Shown here: positions 10,035 through 34,320 of the stretch, one piece after another
Layout: each line of letters begins with the position of its first letter
Numbering within the stretch: the first letter of the stretch is position 1
Source: Candidatus Levyibacteriota bacterium
GTDB lineage: Bacteria; Patescibacteriota; Microgenomatia; Levybacterales; UBA12049
Direction of reading: 5' to 3'
DNA: 37,443 nucleotides
Assembly (NCBI GenBank): GCA_027459725.1
Contig: DAIDHK010000012.1
Location: forward strand, 1 to 37,443
Made by a program: the position numbers and the translations under genes
Notes under the pieces: generated by a model
What the model was told of the DNA's origin: nothing
Seen by the model: the letters and a program-made list of their open reading frames with translations, nothing else
The model's database searches: none

Positions 10035-11816
10035 CTACTTCTTCCCCTGTTCTTTAAACATTTCAATCAGCTCTTTCACAGTAGTGGCATCTTCGGGTTT
10101 TTTATCCTTATCGCGAAATGAAACTAACCTGGGAAATCTTAATGCGTAACCCGTAGATTTTCCCTCCATTTTTTTTGTCTCGTCATTTAACTTTGAATCT
10201 ACTTCCATCCCCGCCGTATGTAAAGGACTGCGTGTAATCTCATCTGCTAGAACTTCTATCACAATTTCTGGACGCACCCAAACGCTAGGCACAATCAGAG
10301 AATTAACCCGCGCCGGTTTATGATCAACTTTGATTTTATCCGCCCGCTTGTGAATCTCCTGCCATTCCTCATCCGACAAGCCTGTCCCAATCTTACTTAC
10401 TGACACAAACTCATCATTCTGCTCATCGTATACCCCGACGAGTAATGCACCGGCCCCGAAGGCCGTACGTTTTCCCTTGCCGGTAATATATCCTAAAATG
10501 ACACAATCTATCGTATCGTGCAATTCTCCGGCTGCATGCCGTTTTAGCTTGACCCAGTTAAAGTTACGTCCTCCTGCCTGATAAGGAGAATCGACTCTTT
10601 TTACAACTACACCCTCCAACCCTTTGGAAATACTATCTTCCAGCATAGCTTGTACCTGCTCGGCTTTTTTCAATACTTTTCCAGGAGCCGGAATTAAAGT
10701 CTCATCACCATGAACTGCTTTTTTTATATACTCCAAACGCTCAAGTAAAGGCGTATCTAACAATGACTTTCCCTCAAAATATAGAATGTCAAAAACAAAT
10801 GCACGCAAAGGCAAACTCTTAGCCACTTCTTCAATATTATGTTTACGACGACGTTTGGTTGTTTCCTGAAAAGGTAAAAACTCCTCTGATTCCGGTTGAT
10901 ATGCTAAAGCTTCCGAGTCTAGAATAACTGATTTCACTTTAACTTGTTTTCTCACTCCCTCGATCAAATCAGGAAACATATGTGTCATATCTTCCAAATT
11001 ACGGGAAAACATTTCCACCTTATCTCCGTTTTTATGAATTTGTACGCGAAATCCATCATATTTTGGCGTTACATGTACCCCTTGATTGTCTACCGACATT
11101 TTCTCGACTACTTTTTGAGCATTAGGCAGTCGTTCGCATAATTCAGAGCGAATCGGACGACCAACCGAGACTTTTAATTTTCTGACTGCTTCCAAACCAC
11201 CCTGCCATAAGGTAGTTGCAATTAAGCCTAAATCGGAGGTTTCGTTGTATGATTTCTCCAATAGTTTCCTTTGCACTTTATCACCTAACTTAGCCGTAGC
11301 TAAACCATCTAAAATAGTCGGATCACCAATTCCTAAACGGTTATTGCCCAAAGGAATTCTGACCAGATGCTTGGCAGAATTTGCATCACATTGTTTTAAC
11401 ATATCTGCTAACATTCTTTGTTTTTTCTCCACAGATCCTTCTCCGTTTGTATGAGCAATTTCGGTCAACCCCTCAAACACGTCAGCCACTGTTAATACAC
11501 TCTTTTTGTCTTTACTCTCAGCTCTTAACTGCTTAGCGGCTAATCCCATGTCTCCCAGCTTGTTGAATAGATGCAAAACTTTATCTTTATCTTCATCAAA
11601 AGCCAGACCGATCGCTGCTGCCACGTTTTTATCCGCCATTCCTATTTCGACAGGTGCATAAAAAGGTGCTACCCTGCCCTGAGATAAATAAACGATCTTT
11701 GCAATCTCATCATTGTGAGCTGACTTAAATAAATCGGAGAGTATTTCAATCAGTGAAAGGCGTGAAGATGTTGTCTCCATTTTTTCAAAATATCTTGTCA
11801 ATTCTACAAATGTCAT
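10035..11816 (-). CDS. lig: ATP-dependent DNA ligase, archaeal/LigB type
   Basis: Nucleotidyltransferase motif I PKYDGFRVQIHKNG, IEEVAKSLPLRAFVFDILYFEG, EGVVVKRVDSPYQAGGRNFNWVKLKR, N-terminal helical DNA-binding domain. Confidence 0.95.
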   Translation of the reverse strand: MTFVELTRYFEKMETTSSRLSLIEILSDLFKSAHNDEIAKIVYLSQGRVAPFYAPVEIGMADKNVAAAIGLAFDEDKDKVLHLFNKLGDMGLAAKQLRAESKDKKSVLTVADVFEGLTEIAHTNGEGSVEKKQRMLADMLKQCDANSAKHLVRIPLGNNRLGIGDPTILDGLATAKLGDKVQRKLLEKSYNETSDLGLIATTLWQGGLEAVRKLKVSVGRPIRSELCERLPNAQKVVEKMSVDNQGVHVTPKYDGFRVQIHKNGDKVEMFSRNLEDMTHMFPDLIEGVRKQVKVKSVILDSEALAYQPESEEFLPFQETTKRRRKHNIEEVAKSLPLRAFVFDILYFEGKSLLDTPLLERLEYIKKAVHGDETLIPAPGKVLKKAEQVQAMLEDSISKGLEGVVVKRVDSPYQAGGRNFNWVKLKRHAAGELHDTIDCVILGYITGKGKRTAFGAGALLVGVYDEQNDEFVSVSKIGTGLSDEEWQEIHKRADKIKVDHKPARVNSLIVPSVWVRPEIVIEVLADEITRSPLHTAGMEVDSKLNDETKKMEGKSTGYALRFPRLVSFRDKDKKPEDATTVKELIEMFKEQGKK

Positions 11817-30842: not shown

Positions 30843-30895
30843 ACTAGAACTAATAGAGTCTATGATTTACACCTGGAGATTTAGATTTAAATCTG

Positions 30896-30968
30896 TACCA
30901 GGGATGAGATTCGAACCCATGACCGCTGCGTTATGAATGCAGTGCTCTAACCACTGAGCTACCCTGGC
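30896..30968 (-). tRNA. tRNA with CAT anticodon (elongator Met or Ile2)
   Basis: Minus strand GCCAGGGTAGCTCAGTGGTTAGAGCACTGCATTCATAACGCAGCGGTCATGGGTTCGAATCTCATCCCTGGTA; loop TTCATAA. Confidence 0.93.
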
Positions 30969-31103: not shown

Positions 31104-31172
31104 TGCGGGGTAATGTACGGTGCATAAAGGGCTCATAATCCTTTTGGTCAGGTTCAACTCCTGACCCCGCAA
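31104..31172 (+). tRNA. initiator tRNA-fMet-like (CAT), short D-arm
   Basis: TGCGGGG TA ATGTACGGTGCAT A AAGGG CTCATAA TCCTT TTGG TCAGG TTCAACT CCTGA CCCCGCA A; acceptor, anticodon and T stems fold; GGGCTCATAA initiator signature. Confidence 0.7.
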
Positions 31173-32042: not shown

Positions 32043-32903
32043 ATGAAGCAAATCAGTGTTCGTGACGCACATAAAGCATTTACTGACTTCCTGCGTGAAA
32101 AAAAACATTCCAGTGCTACCATTTTAGCATACGGTAAAGACATTGATCAGCTCGCCACTTTCCTTGAAGAAATGCAAAAACATCAAGTTCATGAGATCGG
32201 TAAAGATGATCTTCAAGCATTTCTGGCTAAAATGACAGAAAAGGGATATACACCAAAGTCTGTATCAAGAAAACTTAATTCTACACGCACTTTTTATCGC
32301 TTTCTCAAAGTAAATGAGTATATCACAGATGATCCTTCTCTGTTAGTTTCTCATCCACACTATGAGTTAGCAGCCCCTCGTATCTTAAAACCTACTGAAT
32401 ATCGCGCCCTTAGAGATGCATCAAAGAATGATCCACGTATGTATGCTGTCATTGAGTTATTATTACAAACCGGTATCCGTATTGGGGAATTAGCCATGCT
32501 GAAGTTAGAAGATATGCGTGATGAGGGTCTGCTTATTCGACCCTTTGAAAAGCATGAAGAACGCGTAGTTCCTCTTAATAAACCAGCCCGTGAAGCCTTG
32601 AATCGTTATTTAAAAGTCCGTCCACAAGTAGAAAATAATCATATTTTTATTACCAAATCCGGCAAACCATTCTTAGTTCGCAATATTCGCACAGCCATTG
32701 AACGCTACTTCCGGCTCGCTGGTATTGAAGATGCCAAAGTCAATGATTTGCGTCACACTTTTGTTGTACACCATCTCAAACATGGAGTCTCTTTGGTTCT
32801 ACTCTCCAAAATCCTGGGTCATAAGAGACTGTCTACCACGGAGAGATATCTGGAGTATGTATCAGATCGAGGCAAAGACACCTCCGTGCTTAGCGAGCTA
32901 TAA
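32043..32903 (+). CDS. tyrosine recombinase (XerC/XerD-like)
   Basis: N-terminal SAM-like domain; catalytic TGIRIGELAML, LRHTFVVHHLKHGVSLVLLSKILGHKRLSTTERYLEY. Confidence 0.95.
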   Translation: MKQISVRDAHKAFTDFLREKKHSSATILAYGKDIDQLATFLEEMQKHQVHEIGKDDLQAFLAKMTEKGYTPKSVSRKLNSTRTFYRFLKVNEYITDDPSLLVSHPHYELAAPRILKPTEYRALRDASKNDPRMYAVIELLLQTGIRIGELAMLKLEDMRDEGLLIRPFEKHEERVVPLNKPAREALNRYLKVRPQVENNHIFITKSGKPFLVRNIRTAIERYFRLAGIEDAKVNDLRHTFVVHHLKHGVSLVLLSKILGHKRLSTTERYLEYVSDRGKDTSVLSEL

Positions 32904-33051: not shown

Positions 33052-33136
33052 GGAGAGGTCGCATAGTGGTCGAGTGCAGCGGTTTACTAAACCGCCGATC
33101 CGCAAGGATTCGCGAGTTCGAATCTCGCCCTCTCCG
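33052..33136 (+). tRNA. tRNA-Ser, anticodon ACT
   Basis: GGAGAGG...GCGGT-TTACTAA-ACCGC, long variable arm GATCCGCAAGGATT, GCGAGTTCGAATCTCGC, CCTCTCC-G73. Confidence 0.93.
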
Positions 33137-33180
33137 CACTCATATTTACAAAATTCAGTTTTAAATAAGTGCATACTTGT

Positions 33181-34320
33181 TTATATTTTTCCTATAGAAG
33201 AGACAATTCCACTTATGACAGCTAATTGGCCATTAACTCTCATTTCTTGATCTGATGAAAGACAGGATGTTTCAATAGTAATTGAAGGGATATGATTACG
33301 AGAAACATACCATTCCAAAGTAGCTGTATCAAACAAACTACCTAAAGCATTGGCTGTTTTAAATGCTTTACCGAATTGCAGGTAACCTTCTTCTTCTAGA
33401 GGTATACCCAGAAAACCGCTTCTGCCTAAAGTAATATTTTGTCTTCTAAGCTCACTCAAAACAGCATCTTTTATTGAATCAGAGATCATTAGTCCCCCCA
33501 CAAAGGTTTTAGGACGAGCAGCCTCATGGTTAGTTATAACTATATCTGGTTTAGTTAAATTTAATGTATCCCGAATTATTCTTGCCTCAGGAGTATGAAA
33601 TCGAACGAAATCTCTATTTATATCATAGCCCTGTCCATTATAACGAGAGTTGTAATCTGCTCCAATGGGATTTGCAGGAGTAATTACGTTTATGTTAACT
33701 CCAGCGAAAGCAGAACTATTATCAGCTAACTCTCTTAAAAGTTGTAAACTAGCCAGTAAGGGAGCTTGCTCGTTACCATGTATCGCAGTTACAACTGACA
33801 TTGTAGGAAAGGAAGAGTCAAATACTCGCGAAATGTTATACATCGAATATTTTTTTCCTTTATATTCTACTTCTCCAACCTGTTGGCTTTGTAAATTGGC
33901 TGATCCCATAAGTTCATTTAATTTCTTATAATAATCTTCTAGCCTAAAATCCAGCTCTTGTATACCTAACCTTGTCTCCTCTACTGGACTGTGATACGGT
34001 CGTAATCTAACTAGGTCCATGTAAGTTCTAACTTGTTCAATTGGTTTGGAGAGAAGAATTAATAATCTGTTAGAATTTTTAATCAGTGGCACTCTTACTG
34101 TTTCAGATACCCTAGGATGTGGCTCTACATCAACAAAGGTAGAAGTACCAACTTTTTGTATCTCATCTCTTATTTGGCTTGTTCTTCCTTGTATGCCTGT
34201 GCCTTCACTTATATCGGGGGGATTAAGATCAGCAGCAAATCGTCGATCTAATACTTCTGGGTCGTCTGTCCCATGTTTTATGATAGTTTCTCCTTGCTCT
34301 ATTTGTGTACCTTCGCTCAT
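33181..34320 (-). CDS. succinylglutamate desuccinylase/aspartoacylase (M14)-like zinc hydrolase
   Basis: Zinc motif TAIHGNEQAPLLASLQLL, RYNGQGYDINRDF, DIVITNHEAAR, ITIETS. Confidence 0.75.
   Translation of the reverse strand: MSEGTQIEQGETIIKHGTDDPEVLDRRFAADLNPPDISEGTGIQGRTSQIRDEIQKVGTSTFVDVEPHPRVSETVRVPLIKNSNRLLILLSKPIEQVRTYMDLVRLRPYHSPVEETRLGIQELDFRLEDYYKKLNELMGSANLQSQQVGEVEYKGKKYSMYNISRVFDSSFPTMSVVTAIHGNEQAPLLASLQLLRELADNSSAFAGVNINVITPANPIGADYNSRYNGQGYDINRDFVRFHTPEARIIRDTLNLTKPDIVITNHEAARPKTFVGGLMISDSIKDAVLSELRRQNITLGRSGFLGIPLEEEGYLQFGKAFKTANALGSLFDTATLEWYVSRNHIPSITIETSCLSSDQEMRVNGQLAVISGIVSSIGKI

Follow-up and report, generated by a model that had tools for sequence, protein, structure and literature searches.

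Why does a bacterial genome encode a serine tRNA whose anticodon begins with adenosine? A gene for such a tRNA, tRNA-Ser(ACU), lies in a genome of Candidatus Levyibacteriota, a lineage of the Patescibacteria, which are small, mostly uncultured bacteria. The stretch of DNA analyzed here (the window; 37,443 nucleotides) is contig 12 of this genome (G000), which comprises 1.495 Mb in 52 contigs and is 98.7% complete. The initial annotation of the window regarded an A34 in the two-codon AGY box as abnormal for bacteria, and we agree. Across 319 genomes, A34 tRNAs other than tRNA-Arg(ACG) were found to be strikingly absent from bacteria (PMC4041420), and unmodified A34 tRNAs are exceedingly rare in all life (PMC11066159). 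We consider it probable that tRNA-Ser(ACU) is a dedicated reader of AGU with an unmodified A34, that tRNA-Ser(GCU) reads AGC and also AGU, and that the ACU tRNAs are an old Patescibacteria family.

The tRNA-Ser(ACU) gene and its surroundings

The gene occupies positions 33052 to 33136 of the forward strand. ARAGORN calls a tRNA-Ser(act) at 33052-33137 on that strand, and the Rfam tRNA model RF00005 matches 33052-33136 with 54.6 bits, every stem pair being standard. Structure prediction yields a clean cloverleaf that includes a long variable arm (z = -3.1 relative to shuffled sequences). The anticodon stem pairs GCGGT (33079-33083) with ACCGC (33091-33095) and encloses the loop TTACTAA (33084-33090), in which the anticodon ACT spans 33086-33088. 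The T-loop is standard, the discriminator is G73 (33136), and CCA is not encoded. The long-armed cloverleaf and G73 are those of a bacterial type II tRNA-Ser, with ACU in place of the GCU anticodon. Judged from these features, this is a genuine and well-formed tRNA-Ser(ACU), which bears out the initial description of its body, discriminator, loop, and anticodon. The wobble base had been placed at 33094; A34 is in fact at 33086, eight bases away, according to both ARAGORN (gene position 35) and a direct reading of the sequence. A sequencing error at A34 is ruled out, since the A is common to a genome of the same genus (G001) and many other genomes.

Among the 46 tRNA matches in G000, ACU is the sole A34 tRNA. 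A counterpart with 94% identity is present in G001, where the surrounding region is collinear. The window copy is chromosomal. Its upstream neighbor (32043-32903, forward strand) encodes a tyrosine recombinase of the XerC/XerD kind that scores below the XerC/XerD equivalog cut-offs. We considered whether the tRNA is mobile-element cargo or an attachment-site copy, given the recombinase nearby; this is unsupported, as the recombinase is XerC/D-like and the gene order is kept in the congener. The downstream gene (33181-34320, reverse strand) encodes a metallopeptidase or deacylase, weakly AstE/AspA-like, and is probably unrelated to the tRNA.

Two other features of the window merit mention. A 69-nt tRNA-Met-like gene with anticodon CAU (31104-31172, forward strand) lies beside an opposite-strand tRNA-Met (30895-30968), in a stretch kept in the congener; it is perhaps an initiator with an odd D arm. 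At 10035-11816 (reverse strand), a large ATP-dependent DNA ligase (TIGR00574, 418 bits) is encoded, which is conserved in another genome, G004. Ligases of this kind are common in archaea and eukaryotes.

Distribution, ancestry, and the anticodon arm

G000 also contains a separate tRNA-Ser(GCU), at positions 279294-279381 of contig C1. This rules out tRNA-Ser(ACU) as the sole reader of AGY and covers AGC, so that the decoding of this codon, initially described as a puzzle, is mostly explained. It had also been proposed that a second tRNA-Ser(GCU) would make the ACU tRNA dispensable. The second tRNA does exist, but the ACU tRNA is not thereby an ordinary leftover, because ACU genes form a distinct family that has been conserved through much of the phylum. 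GCU tRNAs were confirmed in four carriers of the ACU gene (G000, G001, G009, and G033). They were missed in several carriers by a strict pattern, and in some by a looser one; the tRNA sets of those genomes look incomplete (G080, for example, has only 26 tRNA matches). Where matches are listed, a GCU tRNA lies within 8 kb of the ACU tRNA at 73 of 117 carrier loci, with a median gap of 142 bases.

Some of the GCU tRNAs are themselves unusual. The partner in G000 and its counterpart in G001 (contig C15) both have G8 rather than the nearly universal U8. Three genomes have a tRNA-Ser(GCU) with loop TCGCTAA, in which C33 takes the place of the universal U33 (G004:C18:21139-21222, G074:C47:5746-5830, and G079:C42:3955-4039). 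Two of the three carry the ACU tRNA, and the third is only 61% complete.

We searched for tRNA-Ser(ACU) with a pattern in which nothing was fixed beyond the loop TTACTAA, the T-loop, U8, and the acceptor ends. Within the order, 22 of 82 genomes have it; a phylum-wide sample of 380 genomes includes 24 carriers, which belong to several families and classes. Since roughly three-quarters of the order lacks the gene, AGU can evidently be read in its absence. A scan covering about 85,000 named species recovered at least 119 stretches. Among the matches listed, those with phylum-naming titles are mostly Patescibacteria (Nomura-, Magasanik-, Roizman-, Taylor-, Levy-, Kaiser-, Adler-, and Zambryskibacteria, and others). 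The named exceptions among them are two Lactiplantibacillus, two Firestonebacteria, and one Elulimicrobium; two further exceptions were not called Ser(ACU) by ARAGORN. In the two Lactiplantibacillus species, tRNA-Ser(ACU) adjoins tRNA-Asn and, in one, also tRNA-Ile(UAU); these might be prophage tRNAs.

Cellular ACU tRNAs behave, at the sequence level, as one old family apart from the GCU tRNAs. With the wobble base masked, a tree of 129 cellular ACU and 105 GCU tRNAs requires 6 label changes, versus 77 in shuffles. For 128 of the 129, the nearest neighbor is another cellular ACU tRNA. Constraining ACU to a single clade is not rejected (p-AU 0.65), the likelihood being better than that of the free search; with so few columns in a tRNA alignment, the tree permits a single origin but does not prove it. 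Our search of the full-text literature turned up no account of a bacterial tRNA-Ser(ACU), although a survey table may mention one. This conserved Patescibacteria family of A34 serine tRNAs is thus apparently undescribed.

The family has a characteristic anticodon arm. Positions 30 to 40 read GUUUACUAAAC in 129 of 129 distinct cellular ACU tRNAs; in the window, this invariant segment (GTTTACTAAAC) spans 33082-33092 on the forward strand. Without exception, 30-40 is a G-C pair and 31-39 a U-A pair, while the outer pairs 27-43, 28-42, and 29-41 show compensated variation. Among the 105 GCU tRNAs, those two inner pairs are of many kinds. The search pattern left positions 30, 31, 39, and 40 free but prescribed the loop positions, the T-loop, and U8, which therefore carry no weight as family evidence. 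We propose that the constancy of G30-C40 and U31-A39 probably reflects a requirement of the A34 anticodon for this extended anticodon. The arm would then be tuned to A34 for efficient and error-free decoding.

ACU tRNAs also occur in phage tRNA arrays. We detected them in 43 viral contigs. In 26 of these, the fetched stretch contains at least three tRNAs; a GCU tRNA accompanies the ACU tRNA in only 3. In these viral tRNAs, the pair 30-40 is kept and 31-39 varies. Isolate phages yielded two matches to the window tRNA, both weak.

The phage copies bear on the first alternative, that tRNA-Ser(ACU) sustains AGU or AGY reading when a putative toxin or anticodon nuclease cuts the anticodon of tRNA-Ser(GCU), and that phages and hosts retain it because A34 and the fixed arm escape recognition. 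On this account, it would still be an old, selected isoacceptor with unmodified A34, serving beyond the supply of AGU reading as a protected stand-in for the GCU tRNA against tRNA-cutting nucleases, common to Patescibacteria and phages; we regard such a further purpose as rather unlikely. The scarcity of GCU tRNAs in the viral arrays, the invariance of the 30-40 arm, and the patchy distribution in the order would fit, and phage tRNAs with altered anticodon loops have been proposed to evade host tRNA nucleases (PMC10264068). However, in the congener the gene occupies the corresponding chromosomal site rather than a mobile element, and the loop bases other than 34 are identical to those of GCU tRNAs. 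A role as a nuclease-proof spare is therefore, in our estimation, a possibility of low probability.

It is more doubtful still that tRNA-Ser(ACU) is a relic left when a spare GCU gene tolerated a mutation of G34 to A, with no selected role. The coexistence of a GCU tRNA and the lack of the ACU gene in most of the order are compatible with this idea. The tree and the nearest neighbors (128 of 129) instead point to one old family rather than to repeated local copies of GCU genes, and the 30-40 segment is invariant while compensatory changes occur outside it. In addition, the same pattern finds tRNAs of this body with UCU or CCU on just one viral contig each, against 43 for ACU and at least 120 for GCU. 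A relic was thus already disfavored, and we consider it quite improbable.

State of the wobble base and codon reading

What tRNA-Ser(ACU) reads depends on the state of A34. In most organisms, an encoded A34 becomes inosine (PMC11066159). Deamination by TadA or another enzyme would enable the tRNA to read both AGU and AGC and would put AGA at risk. The initial annotation advised looking for tadA. None was found in G000 using PF14437 or NF008113, so that this genome encodes an A34 without a detectable deaminase for it. PF14437 matches 12 of 14 control genomes. As the genome is 98.7% complete in 52 contigs, it is possible but unlikely that a TadA gene was overlooked through assembly gaps. The broader deaminase model PF00383 has one match in G000, a 285-aa protein whose N-terminus resembles a nucleotidyltransferase and whose C-terminus resembles a dCMP deaminase. 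This fusion (contig C13; L097:1057-1914) is weakly similar to an anti-phage dCTP deaminase model (42.5 bits; cut-off 400).

Across 44 carrier genomes, none reached the NF008113 cut-off of 150 bits, and 36 had no match whatever. The other eight had matches of 21 to 71 bits, including a short TadA-like deaminase in three carriers (67 to 71 bits); as most control genomes also fall below the cut-off, these three may still be TadA. Because only 5 of the 14 controls reach this cut-off, we rely on the absence of any match and not on the cut-off itself. Furthermore, G000 reads CGY with tRNA-Arg(GCG) rather than tRNA-Arg(ACG), and AGA and AGG with tRNA-Arg(UCU) and tRNA-Arg(CCU). The usual TadA substrate is therefore gone, in keeping with a published screen in which tRNA-Arg(ACG) is missing from the whole radiation and replaced by tRNA-Arg(GCG) (PMC8629427). 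Given that no TadA was found and that CGY is read by tRNA-Arg(GCG), A34 probably remains an unmodified adenosine. Some other enzyme could modify it, but inosine at position 34 would misread AGA, and we consider deamination very unlikely.

Published work shows how an unmodified ACU anticodon can behave. Carried by an orthogonal tRNA and assayed with a reporter in E. coli, it read AGU at 9.4%, while AGC and AGA were below detection and AGG was at 0.36% (PMC11066159). Misreading of the arginine codon AGA is thus unlikely. This test, the absence of a detectable TadA, and the arginine tRNAs of G000 together largely settle the concern, raised initially, that AGA might be misread. With AGC left to tRNA-Ser(GCU), tRNA-Ser(ACU) most likely reads AGU alone.

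Codon usage agrees with this reading and offers weak support, as it is not specific to AGU. Carriers favor AGU over AGC more than noncarriers do (0.635 versus 0.518; residual p 0.0008), and a TCU/TCC control shows no difference. Contrasts within three genera, each small, are positive in all cases. When descent is corrected for with an RpoB tree (29 genomes), carriers retain a shift toward AGU of +0.29 log-odds (p 0.008). For sign tests on independent pairs, informative pairs were too few. The tree-corrected test covered all 16 NNU/NNC boxes. In these 29 genomes, all from the order, carriers also favor UGU and GGU more, and UUU, CUU, AUU, and GUU less, with shifts as large as that of AGU or larger. 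Codon usage therefore does not single out AGU, and we dropped it as proof of AGU reading.

We thus favor a mechanism in which the gene makes a normal serine tRNA that is used by the ribosome and whose wobble base is kept as unmodified adenosine. The ACU tRNA would pair with AGU by a Watson-Crick A34-U3 pair, while tRNA-Ser(GCU) would read AGC, plus AGU by wobble. It would represent an old Patescibacteria isoacceptor family rather than a recent G34-to-A mutant of a GCU gene, and its loop-proximal pairs G30-C40 and U31-A39 would be fixed for accurate decoding with A34. Signs of a translating tRNA, as far as primary sequence can tell, are the D-loop GG (128 of the 129 cellular ACU tRNAs) and the standard T-loop and G73 of the window copy.

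The least likely alternative is a serine tRNA reserved for work outside translation, such as supplying serine to cell-wall or lipid ligases: a conserved extra gene with a redundant anticodon would fit, but the D-loop GG and T-loop resemble those of a translating tRNA, no linked partner gene was seen, and the fixed part is the anticodon arm, for which we know of no need on the part of such ligases.

Relation to known tRNAs

The closest known relative is bacterial tRNA-Ser(GCU), which has the same amino acid and codon box, the same type II body with G73, and the same anticodon loop apart from base 34, and whose gene is often next to that of tRNA-Ser(ACU). The ACU tRNA differs in having A34 instead of G34, in the fixed pairs at 30-31/39-40, and in its separate branch of the tree. 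The tRNA-Thr(AGU) of Mycoplasma, with an unmodified A34 (PMC11066159), is similar in that A34 is encoded without the expected inosine in a small genome. However, the Mycoplasma tRNA serves the four-codon box of threonine within a reduced tRNA set that leans on superwobble (PMC11066159), whereas the Patescibacteria ACU tRNA serves a two-codon serine box and a full G34 partner is kept. tRNA-Arg(ACG), the sole A34 tRNA in most bacteria, is a TadA substrate read as ICG; it requires TadA and a four-codon box, while G000 instead has tRNA-Arg(GCG) and no TadA that we could find. Phage tRNAs with altered anticodon loops resemble the ACU tRNAs in their occurrence in phage arrays. For those phage tRNAs, host nucleases and anticodon-loop mutations are known (PMC10264068), whereas the ACU tRNA is mainly chromosomal and its nuclease is hypothetical.

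A conserved, phylum-wide natural family would offer many independent systems in which decoding by unmodified A34 can be studied. It could show why A34 is usually shunned and what loop-proximal stem pairs contribute. For annotation, calls of tRNA-Ser(ACU) in Patescibacteria should not be discarded as errors or pseudogenes.

Two further observations concern the arrangement of these genes. At one locus (G059, contig C78), two different ACU tRNAs are encoded in opposite orientation, separated by roughly 1 kb that holds GCU and UGA tRNAs. G000 also has a tRNA-Ile with anticodon UAU (C1:248091-248163), and such tRNAs occur near ACU tRNAs at several Nomurabacteria loci.
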